Positions 3,239 through 35,124 of a DNA stretch of 53,753 bases are shown in pieces (position 1 is the stretch's first letter; each line of letters starts with the position of its first letter). Origin of the DNA: Planctomycetota bacterium (GTDB lineage: Bacteria > Planctomycetota > Phycisphaerae > UBA1845); contig JAUWWQ010000028.1 of NCBI GenBank assembly GCA_030616775.1, forward strand, positions 1 through 53,753. The letters are read 5' to 3'. Below the pieces are notes generated by a model. It saw nothing but the letters and a program-made list of their open reading frames with translations, ran no database searches and was not told the origin of the DNA. The translations under genes were made by a program, and so were the position numbers.

Positions 3239-3622
3239 CTATGGTCTGCGTCCGCGAGAGGCAGGTCGCTTGCCTCGTGGTTGGCTGGTGGATTGAGCAG
3301 CCGCCCGCCGCAGGTCTGTCAGCTCGATGCCCTGTGCGATCTCGATCTGCTGGCGGCTGGCATTGAACCGGTACGCGACAAGCCGCTCCGCAGGAGTGTC
3401 AAGAACGTAAAGGTGCTCTTCGTCCGCGATGCTCACGCCGCCGACGGTCAGGACGTATGCCCCGCCCGCGGTGGTCATACCATCAGCCCAGGCCGGCTCG
3501 GGACGCGTGTTGATGATCAGGACGCCGACCAACAGGATCGCAGCCGTTGTGGACAGAATCCCGATAACGAAGTCCTTCGAGTCCACGGATCTGTGTGAGT
3601 GTCCCTGCAAGTCAGATCTCAC
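3239..3622 (-). CDS. Small membrane-anchored protein, paralogue of the gene upstream
   Basis: This 127-residue protein has one hydrophobic segment (about residues 18-37, VIGILSTTAAILLVGVLII) and then an exported domain. In that domain an EEHLYVLDTPAERLVAYRF stretch parallels VLYVLDVPSRKLYAFYP in the neighbouring 96-residue protein. The shared 'YVLDxPxxxLxAY' core suggests a common small beta-rich fold. The C-terminus is basic and low in complexity. The ATG overlaps the stop of the upstream gene by four bases (ATGA), which indicates translational coupling. I do not recognise the function; such protein pairs look like conserved planctomycete envelope proteins. Confidence 0.6.
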   Translation of the reverse strand: MRSDLQGHSHRSVDSKDFVIGILSTTAAILLVGVLIINTRPEPAWADGMTTAGGAYVLTVGGVSIADEEHLYVLDTPAERLVAYRFNASRQQIEIAQGIELTDLRRAAAQSTSQPRGKRPASRGRRP

Positions 3623-3909
3623 TTCCGATCAAAGTCTTTGGCCAAATCGCGCGGCTGAGTGGCCGCCAATTGGTTGGTGTGCCCTCCGGTTGGATAGAAC
3701 GCATACAGCTTGCGACTGGGCACGTCGAGCACGTAGAGCACGTCGTAAGTCTGGCCGGCCACTTTCGCGGTGACGCATGCAAAATCGCCGGGCCGGGCAC
3801 CGATCTGGGCATACGCCGCCGGCAGCGAGTAGCTTCCAAACAGCAACACCGCGAGCAGAAACAGGTTCAGCCCGACGAGCATGACAATCATGGAGCGTTT
3901 CGTAAACAC
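3619..3909 (-). CDS. Small exported protein with YVLDxP motif
   Basis: This 96-residue protein has an N-terminal hydrophobic helix (MIVMLVGLNLFLLAVLLFGS) and a possible signal-peptidase site after AAYAQ. The mature part contains VLYVLDVPSRKLYAFYPTGG, closely echoing the downstream gene product. It is the middle gene of a three-gene minus-strand set (4204 to 3239) and overlaps the next gene by ATGA. Function is unknown. The paralogy and coupling suggest the two products work together at the inner membrane or in the periplasm. Confidence 0.6.
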   Translation of the reverse strand: MFTKRSMIVMLVGLNLFLLAVLLFGSYSLPAAYAQIGARPGDFACVTAKVAGQTYDVLYVLDVPSRKLYAFYPTGGHTNQLAATQPRDLAKDFDRK

Positions 3910-4786: not shown

Positions 4787-5980
4787 CTATGGTGCGGAGC
4801 CCAGGGCGAAGAGGCTGATTCGTTTGGTACCGATGGTGTTTGTGACGAACAGGAAGTAGGCGGGTTGAAAGTTGGCGGGGACCAATGAAGCCAGGCGGTC
4901 CGGCAACGTGGGGGCGATGACCACGCCGACGGGCATGGGTGTACCGCCGGGCTGATCCTCGCGGCCGCCGAGCAGCATCAGAAGCTGTCCCTGCTCGTCG
5001 AATAGATGGACACGGCTGAATTCGACGTCGGTGATAAAGACCACACCGTCCGGTCCGACGGCTAGATGCCGGGGCTTGCCCATATCGCCGTAGCGATTTC
5101 CCGGTCGGCCCATGCTGCGCACCGGGGTGTGCGAGTCATCGAAGACCTGTACGCGAGCGTTCATCGTGTCGGAAACGAAGATCTTTCCCTTTGAGTCCGT
5201 GGTGACTCCCATCGGGAAGTAGAACCGGCCCGGCTCACTACCAACACCGCCGAAGCTGGTGATATGCGCTCCGTCTGCTGTGGAAAAGACATCGATGCGG
5301 TGCGCGGCGATATCCGCCACGTAGAGCCTGGATCGCACTGCCGCGCAGGATACGGGCCTGTACTTCTCGCGATCGGGAGGGCGAAATCGACGCAGCGACT
5401 GACCGGTAGCATCGAAGGCCGCCACCTCACCGCGGCCGGTGTCGGCCACGTAAACGGTTCCTGCCTCATCGACCGCAATGGCGACCGGCTTGACGAGGAC
5501 CACGTTACCGGTCTGGCCGATACCTTTCGCCTGGCCGGTTTCCAGGTTCCAGTCGTGGACGATGCCGAATTCGGTATCGCATATGTACAGGTGACCGCTG
5601 CGAAATGCGACACCCGCCGGCGTGCCAACACGCGGGCTTACCATTACTCTCCTAAATGCATCCAAGAGACTCCCGCGGACCGGAACCAAGTCATGCAGAC
5701 GGTTGAACGATTTCAAATGGACCACGTGGGCTGAGCTGGGTGGTGGAGGGAAGTAGACCAGATTGGGCGTTACTTTGATCGAGGCACAGCCCGTCAGCAC
5801 ACCGAGAGTGAGTAGGCTATTCAAACAGAGGATCGTTACGTACTGCAACCGTTGGATGGGCGGGTGCCACTGGTCCCGGCGCGCCGGGACCGCCAGTGCC
5901 TTATACCCCTGACGAAGAAACACTGGCGGACAAGCCGCCAGTGGCACCCGCCATTTGGCGTCATCTAGCTTCTCACACAC
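4787..5980 (-). CDS. NHL-repeat lipoprotein of the cytochrome operon (first of two)
   Basis: A lipoprotein signal (LCLNSLLTLGVLTGC, lipobox Cys at residue 65 of the longest frame) precedes a six-bladed-propeller-like body. NHL motifs recur there, for example YICDTEFG, VYVADTGRGEV, LYVADIAAHRI, IFVSDTMNARVQVF and VFITDVEFSRVHLF. Such propellers are protein-protein docking modules. The gene is last in the porin-cytochrome operon and starts five bases after the tetraheme gene stop. Codons 1-44 lie in a palindromic repeat (5855-5955), so translation may really begin at the TTG near 5848. The role as an outer-membrane scaffold for the cytochromes is inferred from context. Confidence 0.75.
   Translation of the reverse strand: MCEKLDDAKWRVPLAACPPVFLRQGYKALAVPARRDQWHPPIQRLQYVTILCLNSLLTLGVLTGCASIKVTPNLVYFPPPPSSAHVVHLKSFNRLHDLVPVRGSLLDAFRRVMVSPRVGTPAGVAFRSGHLYICDTEFGIVHDWNLETGQAKGIGQTGNVVLVKPVAIAVDEAGTVYVADTGRGEVAAFDATGQSLRRFRPPDREKYRPVSCAAVRSRLYVADIAAHRIDVFSTADGAHITSFGGVGSEPGRFYFPMGVTTDSKGKIFVSDTMNARVQVFDDSHTPVRSMGRPGNRYGDMGKPRHLAVGPDGVVFITDVEFSRVHLFDEQGQLLMLLGGREDQPGGTPMPVGVVIAPTLPDRLASLVPANFQPAYFLFVTNTIGTKRISLFALGSAP
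5858..5955. repeat. Palindromic repeat overlapping the start of the NHL gene
   Basis: GGCGGGTGCCACTGG on the left is matched by CCAGTGGCACCCGCC on the right, giving a 15-bp perfect terminal inverted repeat. Internal dyads include GTCCCGGCGCGCCGGGAC. Related GTGGCACC palindromes occur near 39480 and 46690. The element inflates the apparent N-terminus of the gene reading through it. Confidence 0.55.
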
Positions 5981-5984
5981 GCTC

Positions 5985-6569
5985 TTACTTTTTGTGGCAC
6001 GTCAGGCACAGTGCACTGCGGGCGTTGCTGGTGACCAGCATGTACTCTTCGCCGGACATATTGTGGGGGTCGTGGCAGGAGTTGCACTCGACCTTGCCGT
6101 CGGGCAGTTGAACGGTGCCCGCGGCCGTCACCGACGTTACCGGGCGGTAGTCCCTGTCAAACTGCGGATAGTCAACGCCCACGGGGTGATCGCCGGTGCC
6201 GTGCCCGGTGCCGAAAAGCCCGGGATTTTCTCTGTTGACGAATCGCCCGCCCTCGGCACCAGAGATGGTGTCCCTGGCAATCGTTCCGTCATGGCAGCGC
6301 AGGCACACGTTCGTCCCCGGTCCCGCCGCCTTGGATTGGGTCAGCGGCATCCCGAAGGTGCGGTTCAGGTCGGCGTTTTCTTCCCACAGCGGCGCAGCCG
6401 CCGGCTTGTCGCTCTCCGCCGAGTGACAAGCGCTGCACAGGTCCCCGCCGGACCAGTCTTTGTTGCTGAAATCGTGCTTGGAACCCTCAAGACCGCCCCA
6501 GGCCCATCCACCGATGATCATAAGGGTAAAGAACAGGAAGCAAGCGGTGACTCTGGTTGGTTTCATCAT
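5985..6569 (-). CDS. Tetraheme c-type cytochrome
   Basis: After a hydrophobic signal (VTACFLFFTLMIIGGWAW) the protein has four CxxCH haem-attachment motifs: CSACH, CLRCH, CNSCH and CLTCH, the last almost at the C-terminus. CHDPHN after the third motif is typical of the doubled-CXXCH cytochrome family. These proteins are exported and carry covalent haem in the periplasm or at the cell surface. I start at ATG 6569 because its first bases overlap the stop of the 12-haem gene (ATGATGA), a coupling seen throughout this operon; longer frames upstream have no signal sequence. A small electron-transfer partner of the large cytochrome is the likely role. Confidence 0.85.
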   Translation of the reverse strand: MMKPTRVTACFLFFTLMIIGGWAWGGLEGSKHDFSNKDWSGGDLCSACHSAESDKPAAAPLWEENADLNRTFGMPLTQSKAAGPGTNVCLRCHDGTIARDTISGAEGGRFVNRENPGLFGTGHGTGDHPVGVDYPQFDRDYRPVTSVTAAGTVQLPDGKVECNSCHDPHNMSGEEYMLVTSNARSALCLTCHKK

Positions 6570-8371
6570 CGGTTCACTCCCAGCGAGAAGCTGCGCACGC
6601 GGGACGGCGTCCCGCCACGGGCCGTGTTGGCATAAGGGAAATTGATGTGTGTCAGACCGTGACACGTCATTGTGCAATTTCCTGATAACGTCCCCGTGTC
6701 GACGTATTCAACGCGTCTCCCACTCGGCGTATCCGCAGGCATTACCACGGACAGATCGAAGTTGATCAAGTTGCTGTGATTGACGCTGTTGCCCTGGCCG
6801 CGATAGATCCCGTGGGAGTCATGGCAGACGCTGCACGGGGTACGGGCGTCGACGATGTGACGACTGTGCAGCGAGAAGCTCTCATTGTTGATAATACTGT
6901 CTTGGCTGTGGCAGCCGTAGCACAACGCGTACGCCTGGGCACTTTCCGTGGTGAAGTCGTCGGTCTCATAGTTGCGCACCAGCAACGGTTCGAAGATGGA
7001 ACCGTGTGGGCCGTTGGCCCCGGAACCGCGCGCCGACCGGGCGTTATCGCTGTTATGGCAATCCGTGCAGGTGATAATGCTCCCGATCCGTAACGGCGGG
7101 ATCAGACTAACGCTGGTGCTGTTCCGTCTCGGCCCCGCGACCGGATGAAACGAGGGATTGGACACCTGAAACTCCAGCCGCGTGTTGGTTTGAGTGACCT
7201 GTCGCGAGGTTCTGATCCGCGGCCGGCTGACGCTGTCTCCGTGGCACTTGAAGCAGATTTCATAGAGGAACTTGGCATCGTCGGTTTCGCGGCCGGTGAT
7301 GGTTACGCCGGATGCGTTCAGGTTGGGCCCCTTGACAGTTTGTCCGAACGTACTGCGCACAGTTCCAATGGGGTTGTGCCGGGCGGCGTGTGGGTTGTGG
7401 CAGTCCACGCATTCAACGTGTCGCCGCATGGTGAATGGAATCTCAGCCGGATCATGGACTCCCGTACGGAATCGCCCGTCGTGGCCCGAGCGCTTGTAGA
7501 TGTCTGAAGCGATATTGAACCCGGCGATTGCACCGCTATGACAATTGAGGCAGTTGTCCTCTTCGCGCTCGAATCGCAGCAGCCTCTCTCTGTGTGGGGC
7601 TGAATGAATCTTGTGGCAGGTCAGGCAGCCGTTGTCGCTGACGGTGGCATACTTCAAGCGCTCTTGCGGATCGACCGTCCGTCCGGTGGTGCGCTTGCCG
7701 CTGGTGGCATGCCCAGAGTGCATCCACCCCTTCATATCGTGACAAGCCACGCATATGGCCGACATCTGATCCGAGATCCGCAGAAAATCGCCCAACTCAT
7801 CGTTGTGCGGATCGTGGCATGTCGTGCAATGCACTTCACTGTGGACGCCCAGGGGCAGGTCCCGGGTGACCACCTCGGGCGGCCGAATCTGCCTATCTAT
7901 GTTGGACAGGGCCCGGTCATATCGAAAGCCGATCGGATGGTCATCGGACAGATCGTTGGTCAGGTCGGCCATTCCCGGCGGAATTGTTCTGGCGGTCATG
8001 ACGATCGGGTGAGTAACCGGGCGCGAGAGCACGTTACCAAGTGCCATAGATCCGTCATGGCAGCTAAGGCACATCTTGGACGGTCCGTAAGGCTGATCAA
8101 TTCGAGCGTCGGTCGTGGAACTCTCATAGATGCGATAATAGGTCCGGGGGTTCGCCCGGTTCCACAGGGGCGTCTGCGGGGCGGCGTTGTGCGGCGTGTG
8201 GCAGAAGATACAGACTCTGCCTTCCTGCACGGCACGAATAGGCCCGGGCCCACGAGCAGACAGATCGTGCTTGGAATTGACCACCGACTCATCGGCAAAA
8301 GTCACTGCCGTCAAGTTCGTTAACACAAGTAGGGCAGGCGTCGCCCACCCGGCAGTTCGTCGCATCGTCAT
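6566..8371 (-). CDS. Large multihaem c-type cytochrome (11 CxxCH plus one CX3CH)
   Basis: This exported protein of 601 residues has a signal peptide ending around TAVTFA. It carries eleven CxxCH motifs in order: CIFCH, CLSCH, CTTCH, CVACH, CLTCH, CLNCH, CVDCH, CFKCH, CTDCH, CYGCH and CSVCH. Near the C-terminus is an atypical CTMTCH with three residues between the cysteines. Repeated CHDPHN/CHNPHA/CHTPHN strings place it in the doubled-CXXCH family used for long-range electron transfer. It overlaps the upstream NHL gene by four bases and the downstream tetraheme gene by four. With the porin two genes upstream it resembles the decahaem or dodecahaem component of a porin-cytochrome conduit. Confidence 0.9.
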   Translation of the reverse strand: MTMRRTAGWATPALLVLTNLTAVTFADESVVNSKHDLSARGPGPIRAVQEGRVCIFCHTPHNAAPQTPLWNRANPRTYYRIYESSTTDARIDQPYGPSKMCLSCHDGSMALGNVLSRPVTHPIVMTARTIPPGMADLTNDLSDDHPIGFRYDRALSNIDRQIRPPEVVTRDLPLGVHSEVHCTTCHDPHNDELGDFLRISDQMSAICVACHDMKGWMHSGHATSGKRTTGRTVDPQERLKYATVSDNGCLTCHKIHSAPHRERLLRFEREEDNCLNCHSGAIAGFNIASDIYKRSGHDGRFRTGVHDPAEIPFTMRRHVECVDCHNPHAARHNPIGTVRSTFGQTVKGPNLNASGVTITGRETDDAKFLYEICFKCHGDSVSRPRIRTSRQVTQTNTRLEFQVSNPSFHPVAGPRRNSTSVSLIPPLRIGSIITCTDCHNSDNARSARGSGANGPHGSIFEPLLVRNYETDDFTTESAQAYALCYGCHSQDSIINNESFSLHSRHIVDARTPCSVCHDSHGIYRGQGNSVNHSNLINFDLSVVMPADTPSGRRVEYVDTGTLSGNCTMTCHGLTHINFPYANTARGGTPSRVRSFSLGVNR

Positions 8372-9507
8372 GACGACGTCCTCATGTATTCAAATACCTG
8401 GACACGGTGGTTGCCCGAATCCGCCACCCAGATGCGGTTCTGATCATCGATCGCCAGCCCGGCAGGCAGCGAAAACTTGCCCGGGCTGCTACCCTCCTCT
8501 CCAAAAGCCATAAGCAGTCTCCCAACCTCATCGAAAATCTGGATGTTCTCAAAGTGGGCGTCAATGACATAAACATGTCCGTCGCCGTCAAATGCCACAC
8601 CCTTGGGCAGGGACAGATCACCGGCCCCGTCTCCCTTCTGGCCGATCGTCTTCACACAACGGCCATCCAGATCAAGCAGTTGCACCCGGAAATTCCCGCT
8701 GTCAGCCACAAGAAACCGGTCCCCGGCGGAGCAGATGTGTGTGGGAAAGTTGAACTCGCCCGGAGCGGTCCCTCGCTTGCCGATCGTCTTGATCAGCTTT
8801 CCGGCCAGATCGAACACGGTCAAGTGGTGGGCGTTGCCATCCACGACGTAGAGCTGCCTGCGTTTCGGTACGTAGGCGATGCCCACAGGACGCTTCAGCA
8901 CGTCGCTACCGAAACGCTGCCGAAAACTACCCTCGCTATCCAGTTCAATCACCTCGTGGCGCTGGGCATCGGTTACAAAGAGTCTTTCACCGGCCCAAGC
9001 TGCCCCCACAGGCGCCGCCAGCCGCTGATCACCAAAGCCGCTGACCATGTGGTGTGAGCGGCTGTCCAGGTCGATCACATGGACCGAACCCCCGCCCGGG
9101 TCGGCGATGGCCAGAACACCCGGATTCCGAACCGCCAACCCGTGCGGCCCCGAAAATCTGACCGGCGGGCGAGGGCCTCGGAAAGCGGCCTTTATGACTT
9201 CCATCCCCGATTGGCCGGCCTTCAAGTCCCGGCTGTCCGACAGGATGCCCAAAAGCTTGATACGCGGCGCGTCCGGTGGCGGCGGCCAGACTCGCGGCGG
9301 ATCCAACTGTGGAAACAGCATACCCTGGGGTCGGGCACACCCGGCCGTTACGCCGATACACAGCAGGGACAGGCTCACCACAACGGTGCGCACGCTTCCT
9401 GGCGCAACGGAGCTGCGGCTTTTGGCCCGTGCGGATATCCGCGCGAACTGAGCCTCGCAGCTTGCCCGAGGCACGACAGGAGAATAGTCATCGACGACCG
9501 AGTACAT
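8368..9507 (-). CDS. NHL-repeat lipoprotein of the cytochrome operon (second)
   Basis: This 379-residue product has a rather long N-region, a hydrophobic core (VVVSLSLLCIGVTAGC) and a lipobox Cys at about 57. A beta-propeller with NHL blades follows, including FVTDAQRHEVIEL, LYVVDGNAHHLTVFD, LVADSGNFRVQLLD, VYVIDAHFENIQIFD and WVADSGNHRVQVFE. ATG 9507 is chosen because GGGAG lies seven bases before it; it overlaps the porin stop by 20 bases. The ATGA overlap with the cytochrome gene downstream suggests fixed stoichiometry. A surface docking or assembly role beside the multihaem cytochromes is inferred; there is no haem motif or catalytic signature in it. Confidence 0.8.
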   Translation of the reverse strand: MYSVVDDYSPVVPRASCEAQFARISARAKSRSSVAPGSVRTVVVSLSLLCIGVTAGCARPQGMLFPQLDPPRVWPPPPDAPRIKLLGILSDSRDLKAGQSGMEVIKAAFRGPRPPVRFSGPHGLAVRNPGVLAIADPGGGSVHVIDLDSRSHHMVSGFGDQRLAAPVGAAWAGERLFVTDAQRHEVIELDSEGSFRQRFGSDVLKRPVGIAYVPKRRQLYVVDGNAHHLTVFDLAGKLIKTIGKRGTAPGEFNFPTHICSAGDRFLVADSGNFRVQLLDLDGRCVKTIGQKGDGAGDLSLPKGVAFDGDGHVYVIDAHFENIQIFDEVGRLLMAFGEEGSSPGKFSLPAGLAIDDQNRIWVADSGNHRVQVFEYMRTSS

Positions 9508-11557
9508 CGGGCAGCTCCCTGCGCACTCTGAAATACACGCCGTAGTTGTCTTCCTCGGAATCGGGGAGATCGAGGCGATCGTACTCCAAGGTAAGTTCAC
9601 CCGAAAGATCACCCACGACGTACTCCAGCCCGGCGGTAACATCCCAGGCCTGAGTGATCCCGGCGGCCGAATCGTCCTCATATCGATACGCGACGCGCTC
9701 AACCGTGGACAGCGAGTCGGTAAGACGCCAGCGGTGATCGAGTTCCGCGTCGATTACAGTGACATTACGGTCGGCAAACCCGTCTTCGAAGAAAAACCGG
9801 GACAGACGGGTCGAGGCATCCACGGAATGATCCGGGCTCTCGAGGATCCGCAGCAACCCGTCTAAGTGAAAGGCATCATACGGTTCCACCTTGTCGTCGA
9901 AGATCTCGAATTCGGCGCCGAGGGTGTAGCGTTTGGCCTCGTACTTGGTGCCGATGTGGTGGTGATTAGTCCGGTCGGCCCGTCGCAGGAAACCGGTCGA
10001 GACATCGTCTTCCTGATTGCGATACGAAAGTCGATAGTAGGGTGTCAGACCATTGGAGAAGCGCTGCTCGAGGCTGAAGTCGACACGTACCGTGTCGAGT
10101 TTACCGTCAGCGGGCGTGCGGATTTGGTAGTCAATCAGGACCGTGTTCCCATCCGCAATCTGCCCGGTCCGGATGCGGCTTATGCGGGTCACGTTGCCCT
10201 GCCTGAACACCGCGTAATCGATACCCAATCGATAGAACCGGCGGTTGCTGCTGTCAGTCACCACGATGGTACCCGGAACCACATTACGGTTCCGTAGGAT
10301 AAGCGCGAAAGGATCGCGGAAGGTATGGGCCTCGTCCAGTACGATCCGCCGTCCGTTGTCACCGTCGACCTCCTCCGTGTCGTATGCCAGGGCCAGGTTG
10401 GCGTAGAGATGGCCGAAGCGGTTGCGGCGGTTGTACTGCCAGTCTACCGAAGCGCCGTATTGGGTGGTGTTGATATCGTCTTCGATGTCCTCATACAGGC
10501 CGAAGACGTCCACTGTCGTGGTCAGGTTGGTGTACATCTGGTGGACCAGTTGGAAGTCGGCCCGCTGAGTTTCGATGTCCAACCCGGCGTAGCGTTCACG
10601 GTTGAACTGGTATTTGTAAAGCGTTTGCAGGTCATCGGTGTGTCTCAGCGTAAGCTGCGGGCCGATCTCGAAGAAGTCACGGGCGAAATCGCCGCTCTCC
10701 TCCTGCCAGTGGACAAGCGTTCGCAAACCGTGCTGATGCTGCTCGCCGAATTCGAGCTGATGCTCGACGATCAGCAGGTCGCGCGTCGTCTCGAAGGGCT
10801 CCCGCAGGCCCTGGTACTCCTGCTTGGTCTCAGCATGTTCGTAGGAGAGCTTGAACCGATGGTGATCGGTGATCAGCCAGTCGGCACCATAACGCAACGT
10901 GCTTTCCGTAAAGTGCTCATTGTCGCGGCGGTCGACGTTGCCGGTCCGGTCGGTCTCGAGGTAATCATAGGACAACTCCATGGGCACCTTTTGGTGGGAA
11001 TAAACCCAACTGGTGCCGAACCCCGTCCGCCGCTGGTTGAGGGTCGGTTGAAACCGGCGGTTGATTCGGTCCTCCAGACGCAGGCCGTATACCGAGCCCG
11101 AGAACTCTTGCCCCTGGAAGAAGTTGGCCCGCAGATCGAACTCCAGCAGATACCCGTTGTCGTCATCAGTTCGGTCGAAGGAGTCCGTATCCTCCTTGAA
11201 GCGATTCTGGGTCAGGGCAACGCTGAAGTCACCGCCGAAGGAGATTAAGCCGGGGTCCCACACCCAACCACCGAGCTTCAGGCCGATCCTCTCTTCGAGC
11301 CTCCAGTCGCGGTTACGCTGCGTCAAGTTCCGTCCGTACCCGACTCTCCTGGACGTTTCGACTCTGGTGTACGAGTACTCGCCTTCGAGCTCCAGGTAAG
11401 CGTCGAGATGGTCAAGACTGAAGTACTTGGGCCTTTGGGGTGTTGTAGCCGCCTCGTCGGAGGCATAGGCCACTGGAACGCCCGCGGCCCCGAGCAGGAT
11501 TGCCCAGGCCGCGCAGCTAGACACCGCAAAGCGCAAGGTGCTGACCGCGCCAGACAT
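9488..11557 (-). CDS. Outer-membrane beta-barrel porin of the cytochrome operon
   Basis: The 689-residue product has a clear signal peptide (cleavage likely after PVAYA) followed by alternating short beta strands rich in Tyr, Arg and Asp, for example YLELEGEYSYTRVE, LRYGADWLI and LTPYYRLSYRNQE. This is the texture of a 20-plus-strand barrel such as MtrB-type porins, though no MtrB-specific motif was identified. No CxxC was seen near the start. ATG 11557 has GGAAAGG six bases upstream; a start 24 bases earlier is possible. It heads an operon containing two multihaem cytochromes, so it probably sheathes a cytochrome through the outer membrane. Confidence 0.75.
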   Translation of the reverse strand: MSGAVSTLRFAVSSCAAWAILLGAAGVPVAYASDEAATTPQRPKYFSLDHLDAYLELEGEYSYTRVETSRRVGYGRNLTQRNRDWRLEERIGLKLGGWVWDPGLISFGGDFSVALTQNRFKEDTDSFDRTDDDNGYLLEFDLRANFFQGQEFSGSVYGLRLEDRINRRFQPTLNQRRTGFGTSWVYSHQKVPMELSYDYLETDRTGNVDRRDNEHFTESTLRYGADWLITDHHRFKLSYEHAETKQEYQGLREPFETTRDLLIVEHQLEFGEQHQHGLRTLVHWQEESGDFARDFFEIGPQLTLRHTDDLQTLYKYQFNRERYAGLDIETQRADFQLVHQMYTNLTTTVDVFGLYEDIEDDINTTQYGASVDWQYNRRNRFGHLYANLALAYDTEEVDGDNGRRIVLDEAHTFRDPFALILRNRNVVPGTIVVTDSSNRRFYRLGIDYAVFRQGNVTRISRIRTGQIADGNTVLIDYQIRTPADGKLDTVRVDFSLEQRFSNGLTPYYRLSYRNQEDDVSTGFLRRADRTNHHHIGTKYEAKRYTLGAEFEIFDDKVEPYDAFHLDGLLRILESPDHSVDASTRLSRFFFEDGFADRNVTVIDAELDHRWRLTDSLSTVERVAYRYEDDSAAGITQAWDVTAGLEYVVGDLSGELTLEYDRLDLPDSEEDNYGVYFRVRRELPDVLGRR

Positions 11558-11895: not shown

Positions 11896-11992
11896 CATCG
11901 CTGGACCGAGAATCCATCGCTGGACCGAGAATCCCTTCTCGGTCCTCTGGCAGGTGCCGAGAATCCCGATGCACATCGGGACTCGGCACAGC
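11896..11992. repeat. Short direct repeat and two hairpins in the divergent region
   Basis: A 19-base unit CATCGCTGGACCGAGAATC is present twice in tandem (11896-11933). It is followed by a GGACCGAGAA/TTCTCGGTCC hairpin and then a longer near-perfect hairpin (11957-11992) with GTGCCGAG and CGGCAC ends and a TCCCGATG/CATCGGGA inner stem. The remainder of the 11558-12201 gap shows no gene. The position between two divergent electron-transfer transcripts makes a regulatory role possible but unproven. Confidence 0.5.
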
Positions 11993-12201: not shown

Positions 12202-12765
12202 ATGCGTAAGGTCGTTTGTGTAATTGCATTGTGTTGGCTTGTCTCCCTGGGATGTTCGCAGGAAGCGCGCCAGCGGCTCAAGCATTGGTTCTTTGAGGTT
12301 CCTGAGGAAGGTGCGGCGGAGACGGTGGCCGAGGGTCTCGCGCCCTCGATGCAAAGGCCGGAGGTCCTGCCGCTTCCCCGGCCCAGATTCGCATCGCAAC
12401 ATCCGCCGTTTATCTTGCGCGAGTGTCTTGGCTGCCACGACGCCGGGCAACGCATGCAGGTTCGTGATGATTTGCTGGACTCCTGCCGGACCTGCCACGT
12501 CCGCTTCTTCTCGGAAGAGGTAGGGCATAGTCCGGTTGCGGATGGGGAATGCCTCGAATGCCACGAGCAGCATCGCAGCGAAAGACGGTATCTGTTAAAG
12601 TTACCGGTGCTCGATCTGTGCGTCGAGTGTCACGACGAACCTGAAGAGTTGAGTGAGCCGGCCCACACTGTGGCCCAGGTCGAGCAATGCACCGCCTGCC
12701 ACGACCCGCACTTCGGCACGGGGATGCTGCTCAAGCCGAACCCCACTATCCCGATACCGGAGTGA
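12202..12765 (+). CDS. Pentahaem c-type cytochrome lipoprotein
   Basis: The 187-residue product starts with a short lipoprotein signal ([12 protein letters not shown], lipidated Cys at 18). It has five CxxCH motifs: CLGCH, CRTCH, CLECH, CVECH and CTACH. CHEQH and CHDPHF after two of them fit the doubled-CXXCH family. GAGG precedes the ATG by six bases. It diverges from the porin-cytochrome operon and probably serves as a membrane-tethered periplasmic or surface electron carrier feeding it. The number of haems and the lipid anchor are read directly; the direction of electron flow is not known. Confidence 0.85.
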
Positions 12766-12816: not shown

Positions 12817-13395
12817 ATGCAGCGAAGAATGATTCATGCATCGAACATGACCTCTCGTCAATCGACAACGCGCCGATCCGCTAATCGAGGTGCTGGGCTC
12901 TTCCGCGTCTCCAGCTGGCCAATTGGGCTGAGCGCAATCGCCCTGGCTTTGGGCATGATGGGGTGCGGCACCAACCTGGATGAGATCCTCTTCCAGAGCG
13001 GTACGGCTCTGGGTCGAACCTACCTCGATCTACTCTTGACGGACGTGGCCAACACGCTCGCGGAAAGGTGTGATCAAGACGACGAGCCGGTCGACGGCGA
13101 CCAGAACGGCGACGACGCCGATGACGGCAACGGCGGTGACAACGGCACCACGGATGGTGGGTTCGAGGACCTCGTGGGTGACCCGGCCGCCGGTGAGCCG
13201 CTCTATGCCTCGTGTGCGGCGTGTCACTGCGCCGATGCCGGCGGTGGTTGTCTGCCTGGTACCCCAGGCGTTGTCGGCGTTAGCGCTGAGACCCTGGATG
13301 AGTTCCTTCGGGGCGACGCCCCTCATCCGCCCTCTGATCTTACCGACCAGGAAATCGTTGATCTGGAAGCCTACTTAGCCCCCCTCGGCGAGTGA
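12817..13395 (+). CDS. Mono-haem cytochrome c lipoprotein with acidic linker
   Basis: This 192-residue protein has a basic start, a hydrophobic core and a lipobox (LALGMMGC, Cys about 50). A 35-residue Asp/Gly/Asn-rich linker (residues about 85-120) follows, then a small cytochrome c domain with LYASCAACHCADAGGG as the only haem site and a C-terminal DQEIVDLEAYL helix. Methionine ligands are not obvious. AAAGGA lies eight bases before the ATG. It sits 51 bases after the pentahaem gene and is probably co-transcribed. The acidic low-complexity linker may let the haem domain swing between partners, which is inference. Its stop is directly followed, in the same frame, by an AbiEii fragment. Confidence 0.75.
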   Translation: MQRRMIHASNMTSRQSTTRRSANRGAGLFRVSSWPIGLSAIALALGMMGCGTNLDEILFQSGTALGRTYLDLLLTDVANTLAERCDQDDEPVDGDQNGDDADDGNGGDNGTTDGGFEDLVGDPAAGEPLYASCAACHCADAGGGCLPGTPGVVGVSAETLDEFLRGDAPHPPSDLTDQEIVDLEAYLAPLGE

Positions 13396-30631: not shown

Positions 30632-31594
30632 TCAAGCGAGTTTCCGTTCCGTGTCTTCCGTGTCTTTGGTGTCTGCGGCGGAATCCACGGAGGGCATATG
30701 ATGCCGCTCGCGCACTAGACGGACCAGTAGAAACAGCGGGCCGCTAGCCGCATACCACAGCACGAGCAACAGCAACGTCGGGGCTTTCTTGATGGACCAG
30801 AACGCGGCGATGAGCAGTACGAAGGTCATCACCTGGCTGAACGGCCTGTGGCCGAGAAAGTACGCCCGATGCAACCGCCGATAGGGTATATGGCTGATCA
30901 TCAAGAACGCTATCAACACGGCCACAAACGGCATCGAGTAGACGGTGATCGTCCGTCCTGTTTCGCCCATCTCTTCTTGGAAGAGGATCAGTGCCGCTAT
31001 TACGCAGGCGGCACCGGGGGTGGGGAGCCCACGGAACGTTCGGAAGTCGAAGTCCGCCTTGGCATGCTCGACGTTGAATCTCGCCAGGCGTATGGCGGCG
31101 AAGGCCACATAGACAGCGGCCGCGACCCAGGCGACCCGGCCGAAAAAGTGCTCGCTGATCGGTGAGGGCAGGATCGACTCCCCGGCGAGTTCCTTGGTCA
31201 TAAAGGTGACCATCAGCACCGCCGGGGCTGCGCCGAAAGTGACCACGTCGGCCAGTGAATCGAGCTGTCCTCCAAAGTTGGTCGTGCTGTGCGTCACCCG
31301 GGCGATGAGCCCGTCAAGAAAGTCAAAGAGCATCCCCACGATGACCAGGCCCGCGCCAACTGACAGGAATGGCGGAAGGGTGCGCTCCACCAGGGACTGG
31401 TGAAGGGTGCGCACCGCCGTTTCCGGAACGCCGGCCCCAAAGTCATACATTGCCCGCACGGCGAAGTGGATCGCCGCGAATCCGCAAAGCAAGTTGGCCA
31501 GCGTCATGAGTGTCGGCGCAAACGCTAGCGACCGCAGCCGACGCCGTCGACGCCGTTGAGGTCTCCGACGGGGTAGCTTCGCTATGATGGCCAT
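30632..31594 (-). CDS. pssA: CDP-diacylglycerol-serine O-phosphatidyltransferase
   Basis: The 320-residue integral membrane enzyme carries the complete CDP-alcohol phosphotransferase signature. It runs D94 G95 x2 A98 R99 x8 G108 x3 D112 x3 D116, whose aspartates bind metal and CDP. About eight hydrophobic helices follow the pattern of type II phosphatidylserine synthases. It joins CDP-diacylglycerol and serine to give phosphatidylserine. The N-terminus is very basic (RRRPQRRRRRR). It lies 70 bases downstream of psd on the same strand, so the pair makes phosphatidylethanolamine. Confidence 0.9.
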   Translation of the reverse strand: MAIIAKLPRRRPQRRRRRRLRSLAFAPTLMTLANLLCGFAAIHFAVRAMYDFGAGVPETAVRTLHQSLVERTLPPFLSVGAGLVIVGMLFDFLDGLIARVTHSTTNFGGQLDSLADVVTFGAAPAVLMVTFMTKELAGESILPSPISEHFFGRVAWVAAAVYVAFAAIRLARFNVEHAKADFDFRTFRGLPTPGAACVIAALILFQEEMGETGRTITVYSMPFVAVLIAFLMISHIPYRRLHRAYFLGHRPFSQVMTFVLLIAAFWSIKKAPTLLLLVLWYAASGPLFLLVRLVRERHHMPSVDSAADTKDTEDTERKLA

Positions 31595-31663
31595 TCCGAC
31601 GTCTTTCTCACTCTTTTACCTACCGGCCGCGTCCCGTTCGCACGCTCCATGAAGCCGCAGGGC

Positions 31664-32380
31664 TCAGCCTGTACGGGCCTCTGTATGGGTCAACTCCGCC
31701 GGCTGATAGCTGACGCTCCGCCCGTCCTCGATGGGCTGCCGTGCCACCACTGTAAGACCGGCTCGGACCTTGTCGCCGACTACAACTTTGGTTTCGGTGT
31801 GATCGCGCCGCGGGATGACCAATTCCACCCGAGATCCGAACTTGACCAATCCGAAACGGGCACCGATCGGCAGGTGCTGCTCGGCGGTGGCATGGCAGAC
31901 GATCCGCCGGGCTAGGACTCCGGCAACCTGGCGGACCTCGACCGGCCCGGGCATCGGCCCATCAGGATCGATCAGCAGCGTGTTGGATTCATTCCGCCGG
32001 CCGGAGTCAGGATGCCTTGCATCCAGGAACTCCCCGGGGCGATACGTGACTGACCGTACGCGACCTGAGCAGGGCGAACGGTTGATGTGTACGTCAAGCA
32101 GACTCATGAAGATGCCTATTCGAACCGCCGGACCACCGAGTCGTTCATGCGTGTCAAGCTCTGTCATCTCGGTGACAGTCCCATCAGCCGGGGCACACAG
32201 CTCGCCGGGTCCGAAGTTCCCTCGGCGCTTGGGATCCCTAAAGAACGAAAGCACCCAAAGCCACACGATGATGCATGGGATCAGCGCCGGCCAAAACAAC
32301 CAAACTGCAACGGCCCCGAGCACACCGAGAACCAACGTGGTAAGCGCGATCTCACGAAGGCCTTCTCCGGCAATCGGCAC
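31664..32380 (-). CDS. psd: Phosphatidylserine decarboxylase proenzyme
   Basis: The 238-residue short-form enzyme has a hydrophobic front (about 14-45), CAPADGTVT near 62, the DVHINRSPCSGRV block near 96-108, and RFGLVKFGSRVELVIP near 175-190. The Gly182-Ser183 pair is the self-cleavage site at which Ser becomes the pyruvoyl group. It decarboxylates phosphatidylserine to phosphatidylethanolamine at the inner membrane. The start is a GTG. It is the first gene of the psd-pssA pair. Length and motifs fit the Bacteroidetes/planctomycete-type class. Confidence 0.92.
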   Translation of the reverse strand: MPIAGEGLREIALTTLVLGVLGAVAVWLFWPALIPCIIVWLWVLSFFRDPKRRGNFGPGELCAPADGTVTEMTELDTHERLGGPAVRIGIFMSLLDVHINRSPCSGRVRSVTYRPGEFLDARHPDSGRRNESNTLLIDPDGPMPGPVEVRQVAGVLARRIVCHATAEQHLPIGARFGLVKFGSRVELVIPRRDHTETKVVVGDKVRAGLTVVARQPIEDGRSVSYQPAELTHTEARTG

Positions 32381-32484
32381 GGCAATAACCCGCCAAAAAG
32401 TCGAACGATCGAAGCGCCGACCTGGAGCTTTCGACGATTTCGACGCTGATTATTGTTGGAGATGATAGCAACCCTGATACGTAA

Positions 32485-32523
32485 ACGCACGCCTTGAGCG
32501 TCTGGAACGCTCGAGGCGTGCGT
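32485..32523 (-). terminator. Rho-independent terminator candidate
   Basis: A 16-bp stem (one G-T pair) with a 7-base loop lies between ACGCACGCC and GGCGTGCGT. On the minus strand it is followed by TTTAC and comes 45 bases after the stop of the exported-protein gene ending at 32568. Confidence 0.55.
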
Positions 32524-32567
32524 TAGCCTTCCGGGTTACACTTCAGATCCGTTGAGTTCGGTCTTGC

Positions 32568-33176
32568 TCAGCCACCGAACCGGACCGCCAAGTGTAATCC
32601 GTGGTCCCAGCGACTCAGCCTGCGGTGAGCAGGGATGACCATAGGATAGGGGCGGGCCTTGCGAATCAGCAGACGCGGGTGAGACATCCGATGACCCGGT
32701 CTGACCAGGACCTTCTCATAGATGACCCTGGTTGATGCGGGCCGTACGAGCACGCGCCCATAGACGGTCTCGAAGTATCCCGGCCTGACCAGTACTCTCT
32801 CCGTTCGCCACACCTTCCGAGCGGGCTGCACAATGTCTCGGACGATGTCATAGCCGATCAATTGGCCCCACATGTCGTATCGGAGCACATCCCGTGTGAC
32901 GACCTCCGCGGGCAACTCCACCAGGATCCGGCGATCTTCGTAGGCGGGCTCATGCCATACCTTCGTCGCCCGGTCCTCAAAGACAGCCGCTTCTTCGATG
33001 GTTCGCGCCACGGTTGCGTAGACCGGCGGGACCCAGCCCGCGACGCCGTGACGCAGGGCAGCCACCCGGCCATGGCCGGCCAGAGCCGTGTCGGTGGCAA
33101 CCACCAGCCCCACGGCGAACGCTGCCATGCCGCTGAGCGTTTTGACCCGTTTGCGGATTGTTCCAGCGACCTTCAT
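32568..33176 (-). CDS. Exported protein with VLVRP repeats
   Basis: The 202-residue product has a signal peptide (MAAFAVGLVVATDTALA, cleavage likely after ALA). The mature region contains DMWGQLIGYDIVRD and then three spaced repeats built on VLVRP: ERVLVRPGYFE, GRVLVRPAST and EKVLVRPGHR. The C-terminus is basic. ATG 33176 has GGAGG eight bases upstream. Codons further 5' belong to no gene, although the frame is open for another 220 codons. It probably sits in the periplasm or on the surface; I recognise no family. Confidence 0.6.
   Translation of the reverse strand: MKVAGTIRKRVKTLSGMAAFAVGLVVATDTALAGHGRVAALRHGVAGWVPPVYATVARTIEEAAVFEDRATKVWHEPAYEDRRILVELPAEVVTRDVLRYDMWGQLIGYDIVRDIVQPARKVWRTERVLVRPGYFETVYGRVLVRPASTRVIYEKVLVRPGHRMSHPRLLIRKARPYPMVIPAHRRLSRWDHGLHLAVRFGG

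Positions 33177-35124
<1,948 letters not shown>

Follow-up and report, generated by a model that had tools for sequence, protein, structure and literature searches.

A conserved barrel, multihaem cytochrome and NHL lipoprotein cluster in a planctomycete: a probable outer-membrane electron conduit of the Uet type

We analysed a stretch of 53,753 nucleotides (the window; contig JAUWWQ010000028.1 of assembly GCA_030616775.1) from a planctomycete genome (G000) of 4.45 Mb and 97.8% completeness. Five genes follow one another on its minus strand in the order barrel, NHL1, 12-haem cytochrome, tetrahaem cytochrome and NHL2. The barrel gene opens the run at ATG 11557 and stops at 9488; NHL1 (ATG 9507 to 8368) overlaps it by 20 bases, the 12-haem gene (ATG 8371 to 6566) overlaps NHL1 by 4 bases, and the tetrahaem gene (ATG 6569 to 5985) overlaps the 12-haem gene by another 4, so that the place of the five genes and their overlaps are as an earlier note on this DNA had described them. 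NHL2 follows, read in its long frame from GTG 5980 to 4787. At the DNA level, the window contains 23 sites of the CxxCH type against 3.7 ± 1.8 in shuffled sequences, and 15 of the 23 lie inside the 12-haem and tetrahaem genes; the products of these two genes contain haem domains (Paired_CXXCH_1) with E-values of 2e-22 and 2e-11. Scans of the locus for promoters and terminators gave matches at chance level only. The functional unit comprises the five-gene run and, as a sixth part, a divergent gene for a pentahaem lipoprotein, which is counted in because many related loci have its homologue placed between the NHL2 and barrel genes.

The 12-haem cytochrome, which is similar to UetJ of the undecahaem electron transfer (Uet) system, carries 11 CxxCH motifs and one CxxxCH, the 11 + 1 haem sites counted earlier, all of them invariant across 74 homologues. 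The twelfth site, CTMTCH (6659–6676), keeps its Cys and His throughout, and the same alignment shows a surplus of conserved histidines outside the haem motifs. Identity is 39–46% to planctomycete homologues and 41–75% in a wider alignment of 74 rows.

The structure model of this protein has a predicted local distance difference test score (pLDDT) of 86.6. Residues 34–212 (7736–8272) form a tetrahaem domain that matches OmcE (7tfs) both in a profile search (E = 1.5e-44) and in structure (Z 11.9, root-mean-square deviation (rmsd) 3.0, 176 residues aligned, 31% identity). Residues 199–590, as aligned (6602–7777), form an eight-haem part that resembles positions 62–330 of the MtrA chain (6r2q_A) with middling strength (Z 7.4, rmsd 4.9, 219 residues aligned), a Z below 8 being a value that may reflect a common arrangement only; the corresponding profile search gave E = 7.8e-5. 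The 12-haem protein has the look of a nanowire subunit joined to a wire that crosses a membrane. In a tree, the 74 N-terminal domains make up one clade (support 0.875) to which no free tetrahaem protein belongs; the fused OmcE-like domain is therefore an old one rather than a product of local remaking. His35, at the start of this domain, is invariant in the 74 rows. In the window, the MtrA/DmsE decahaem family TIGR03508 was not reached (48 bits against a cut-off of 192), and no window cytochrome reaches the cut-off of TIGR03507 for surface decahaem proteins of the MtrC/OmcA type.

The free tetrahaem cytochrome (5985–6569) has 194 residues, ends in CLTCHKK and belongs to the OmcE family. Its profile matches OmcE 7tfs over the full length (positions 12–209 of 209) with E = 2.8e-40 and 9yuq with E = 9e-40; the single window sequence gives weaker values (1.6e-10 for 9yuq and 0.004 for 7tfs). 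The protein and OmcE each have four CxxCH motifs and have the N-terminal His and the CHKK ending in common. This N-terminal His, the counterpart of His35 in the 12-haem protein, is invariant in an alignment of 14 tetrahaem proteins. Homologues carry signal peptides, and a lipobox is found in only 4 of 70.

The barrel gene (9488–11557) codes for a predicted outer-membrane beta-barrel of 689 residues. The AlphaFold2 model built from 65 homologues (pLDDT 88.9, predicted template-modelling score 0.81) contains about 30 strands; residues 421–479 (697-residue numbering) form a conserved insertion, which would lie on the periplasmic or lumen side, judging from strand parity and assuming a periplasmic N-terminus. 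By sequence, the barrel has no match above the cut-off in Pfam or NCBIfam, no NCBIfam family at E ≤ 1 and no match in the PDB. Foldseek returned large barrels in general, usher and LptD barrels among them; MtrB had the highest TM-scores (0.41/0.44) among the 50 matches listed. The alignment with MtrB (6r2q_B) is also the longest among the matches listed, with 456 residues aligned (54–694), and its Z of 16.3 is a tie with siderophore receptors. A lipobox, by a simple rule, is present in 13 of 67 barrel homologues and absent from the window barrel; the homologues in L042, L046, L051, L053, L054, L058, L078, L097 and L102 are apparently among those with one and may be lipid-anchored large barrels.

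The pentahaem lipoprotein (12202–12765, plus strand) has the lipobox VSLG-C, followed by a variant of a conserved FFDGVP stretch, and contains five CxxCH motifs; it is 28–34% identical to the products of pentahaem genes that adjoin the barrel in other loci. Between the barrel and pentahaem genes, GCTGGACCGAGAATCC occurs twice in tandem (11900–11934), and a similar repeat is seemingly present on contig C18 of the same genome. Downstream of the pentahaem gene lies a monohaem lipoprotein (12817–13395), which was dropped as a part of the module since no homologue was found in related loci.

Both NHL proteins are beta-propeller lipoproteins without haem motifs, and their NHL repeats were correctly named in the earlier note. 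NHL1 (8368–9507) has the lipobox IGVTAG-C and NHL repeats with E = 1.2e-29; the values for NHL2 are VLTG-C and 7e-19. The gap of 4 bases claimed in front of NHL2 holds nominally, if the gene is read from GTG 5980, but is doubtful as the real distance. A palindrome of 23 bases, CACTGGCGGCTTGTCCGCCAGTG (5921–5943), similar to repetitive extragenic palindromic (REP) elements and present in 12 genome copies with none in the reversed control, falls within codons 1–20 of the long frame. Because of this, we place the true start probably at TTG 5848 (gene 4787–5848), which leaves about 136 bases after the tetrahaem gene. The palindrome is read as VPLAACPP and seemingly also makes a false extension of the 12-haem reading frame in another locus (L017). 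Contig C18 codes for a protein of 723 residues in which an NHL propeller is fused to a 9-haem cytochrome part (31372–33543, minus strand; L145, 3373–5544), near a second copy of the module; such propellers are therefore able to sit on haem chains. Further downstream of the operon in the window, on the same strand, lie two neighbouring small secreted proteins (3239–3909) with similar YVLDVP/YVLDTP stretches and no family match.

To follow the module (tetrahaem, NHL, pentahaem lipoprotein, barrel, NHL and 12-haem protein), we scanned 84,980 species with the 12-haem alignment, obtained at least 559 related stretches, some of which may be other OmcE-like cytochromes, and searched the best 80 for the module with profiles of the six proteins. 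Most of these loci contain it, and by record title they fall into 12 phyla: Planctomycetota, Nitrospinota, Hydrogenedentota, Bacteroidota/Ignavibacteria, KSB1, Calditrichota, Verrucomicrobiota, Desulfobacterota, Nitrospirota, Pseudomonadota, Myxococcota and Zixibacteria. The idea of a planctomycete version of a conduit is thus too narrow, while the assignment to the porin-cytochrome type agrees with the data, since a predicted large outer-membrane barrel and multihaem genes stay together in unrelated genomes. This runs counter to both outcomes that the earlier note had named as refuting it, a barrel foreign to the outer membrane and genes kept apart in related genomes. Of the 43 loci whose flanks reach 8 kb or more on each side, 41 have the barrel, 40 NHL1, 40 the tetrahaem gene, 39 NHL2 and 34 the pentahaem gene; NHL1 stands immediately before the 12-haem gene in 71 of the 80 loci. 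A scan of 294 planctomycete genomes with the barrel only gave 12 positive genomes, each from a different genus, and in 11 of them, G000 included, the barrel adjoins module genes, usually the 12-haem gene.

L027, L028 and L030 repeat the arrangement seen in the window, including the divergent position of the pentahaem gene, and L026 has the same five-gene order on a short contig. The second copy in G000, on contig C18, has a barrel 31% identical to the first and two tetrahaem genes, and lies beside cytochrome b6/petD and 13-haem genes; further cytochromes with 7 to 24 haems often co-occur with the module. Gammaproteobacterial loci have the order tetrahaem-NHL-barrel-NHL-12-haem, with trihaem genes at the pentahaem position in two of those sampled (L141, L142), and in L021 the module has a SurA/rotamase peptidyl-prolyl isomerase (PPIase) in its vicinity. 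Of 369 gammaproteobacterial genomes scanned, 13 have the 12-haem protein and none has the full published Uet layout; Tenderia is not represented among the best 80 loci. Some gammaproteobacterial modules run on into an NHL gene and then a cytochrome with 18 to 24 haems (L087, 14911–17967; L099, 17048–19444; L134, 260–3271), perhaps a larger surface partner.

The reading that we consider probable, taken as a whole, is an outer-membrane conduit of the Uet type. The large barrel would sheathe the MtrA-like eight-haem part, giving a wire of haems across the outer membrane; at the N-terminus, the OmcE-like domain would prolong this wire and present an interface of the OmcE type, on which the separately encoded tetrahaem protein could dock and, most likely, polymerise. 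This would make the 12-haem protein the terminal subunit or the base of a tetrahaem chain, i.e., of a cytochrome nanowire. In OmcE and OmcS filaments, the interfacial haem is bound by a His from the adjacent subunit (PMC12954529, PMC9473688), and by analogy the N-terminal His kept by both the 12-haem and tetrahaem proteins is the natural candidate for the linking residue. The pentahaem lipoprotein may hand on electrons at the membrane surface, and the simplest guess for the two NHL lipoproteins is that they are scaffold or assembly factors. In this picture, the gene set, its synteny, the homologies and the folds come from the analysis itself, and from them we infer the sheathing, docking and polymerisation, the direction of flow and the membrane face that each end occupies. 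A more specific form, in which the 12-haem protein is a covalent nanowire base, with the MtrA-like half passing through the barrel, the OmcE-like half acting as the first subunit for tetrahaem polymerisation and the invariant N-terminal His as the link, is put forward tentatively and is somewhat doubtful.

Several observations weigh against the proposed conduit with its docking end. The window tetrahaem protein and its clade lack the usual His after haem 1; mirror-tree analysis did not distinguish co-evolution of the tetrahaem protein with the N-terminal domain of the 12-haem protein (partial rho 0.34) from that with the C-terminal part (0.30); and the match to MtrA is middling, as given above. 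The respiratory relevance of OmcE-type filaments is itself disputed (PMC11077965). A weakness of the proposal is its orientation. MtrA sits in its barrel with the N-terminus periplasmic, so that an eight-haem part placed in the same way would put the OmcE-like end in the periplasm and make the tetrahaem protein a periplasmic partner, with no surface nanowire.

In this reversed orientation, which we regard as rather unlikely, the tetrahaem protein would be a periplasmic shuttle or short wire feeding the conduit. The MtrA alignment does run in the same N-to-C order (model 199–590 to chain 62–330), and the tetrahaem proteins have signal peptides mostly without a lipobox. On the other hand, the OmcE relative of known structure forms a filament outside the cell, the full-length match to OmcE includes the N-terminal His as well as CHxK at the C-terminus, and the tetrahaem protein UetA is described as extracellular (PMC10734462). 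The oxidases of the genome bear on the direction of electron flow. No haem-copper oxidase was found in the 97.8% complete window genome, control genomes being positive, while a bd oxidase is present; because of this, outward flow, with the quinone pool as donor and an acceptor outside the cell, is most likely. Inward flow, with Fe(II), minerals or a cathode as the electron source, has been proposed for Uet in Tenderia and is here less probable still than the reversed orientation: Uet got its name in a group that oxidises cathodes and occurs in iron oxidisers (PMC10734462), but the usual sink for such electrons is the haem-copper oxidase that the window genome lacks.

The barrel could also serve surface cytochromes as an export channel or as a platform for their assembly and sheathe nothing, with electron transfer occurring elsewhere. 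The usher and LptD barrels among its structural matches would suit such a role, as would NHL genes acting as export factors; we consider it improbable in view of the MtrB alignment, which takes in the whole barrel, and the association of the barrel with the MtrA-like 12-haem protein in one phylum after another. According to the earlier note, NHL propellers would replace or support the usual surface cytochrome. The supporting or scaffold role is possible, whereas a surface-exposed stand-in for the terminal cytochrome is very improbable: both proteins are lipoproteins strictly linked to the module, and a fusion of such a propeller with nine haems exists at C18:31372–33543, but neither protein has haem motifs, candidate surface cytochromes (tetrahaem and pentahaem) are nearly always nearby, and cytochromes with 7 to 24 haems often accompany them.

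So far, it is poorly understood how nanowires attach to the outer membrane and receive their electrons. Here, a single cluster, with an order conserved in at least 12 phyla, unites an OmcE-type subunit, an MtrA-like wire bearing an OmcE-type domain and a dedicated barrel, and the joint between nanowire and conduit therefore becomes testable with two proteins. If true, the nanowire-base reading would reveal a solution, conserved in at least 12 phyla, to the problem of wiring nanowires to the cell. The cluster also extends predicted extracellular respiration to many uncultured lineages, including Phycisphaerae.

Compared with the OmcE nanowire of Geobacter (7TFS), the tetrahaem protein is alike over its full length, in its four CxxCH motifs, the N-terminal His and the CHKK end; filaments are known from Geobacter, and in the window an OmcE-like domain is also fused to a further eight-haem wire. 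MtrCAB and MtoAB share with the window a large barrel (MtrB giving the longest structural alignment) and the MtrA-like C-terminal part of the 12-haem protein; the window barrel has structural likeness only and no match to the MtrB/PioB family, and the window has 12 haems with an OmcE-like domain against 10, two NHL lipoproteins and no decahaem gene of the MtrC type. The Omb-Oma-Omc and Ext systems of Geobacter and the syntrophic OetABI likewise cluster a barrel with inner and outer multihaem proteins, although by description their cytochrome families differ from those of the window (PMC10553843). In Desulfovibrio ferrophilus, compared by description, the clusters DFE_0448–0465 combine multihaem cytochromes with NHL proteins as the window does, but that genome is without an apparent porin-cytochrome conduit (PMC9769857).

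Porin-cytochrome clusters of planctomycetes were reported earlier (PMC10732223, PMC13264449). Against the thresholds of PMC13264449, the 12-haem protein has 12 haem motifs (at least 10 there), the barrel model has about 30 strands (at least 10), and the 4-haem and 5-haem genes provide another c-type cytochrome close by. In the literature covered, which missed key work, we met no mention of the OmcE and MtrA make-up of the 12-haem protein or of the OmcE identity of the tetrahaem protein; priority is thus uncertain, and an earlier mention of an anchor with an OmcE domain is possible.

The closest system is Uet, which PMC10734462 describes from Ca. Tenderia (Tenderiales) and Gallionella as undecahaem UetJ, tetrahaem UetA, barrel UetC, NHL proteins UetHI, PPIase UetB and trihaem UetDEG. 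Since this system and the planctomycete clusters have been described, the conduit cannot be called new in kind, as had been suggested. The PPIase and trihaem genes of that parts list are not beside the window genes, which have the divergent pentahaem lipoprotein instead. What the two have in common, at the level of the published parts list, is the clustering of a tetrahaem protein, an undecahaem protein (11–12 motifs), a barrel and two NHL proteins.

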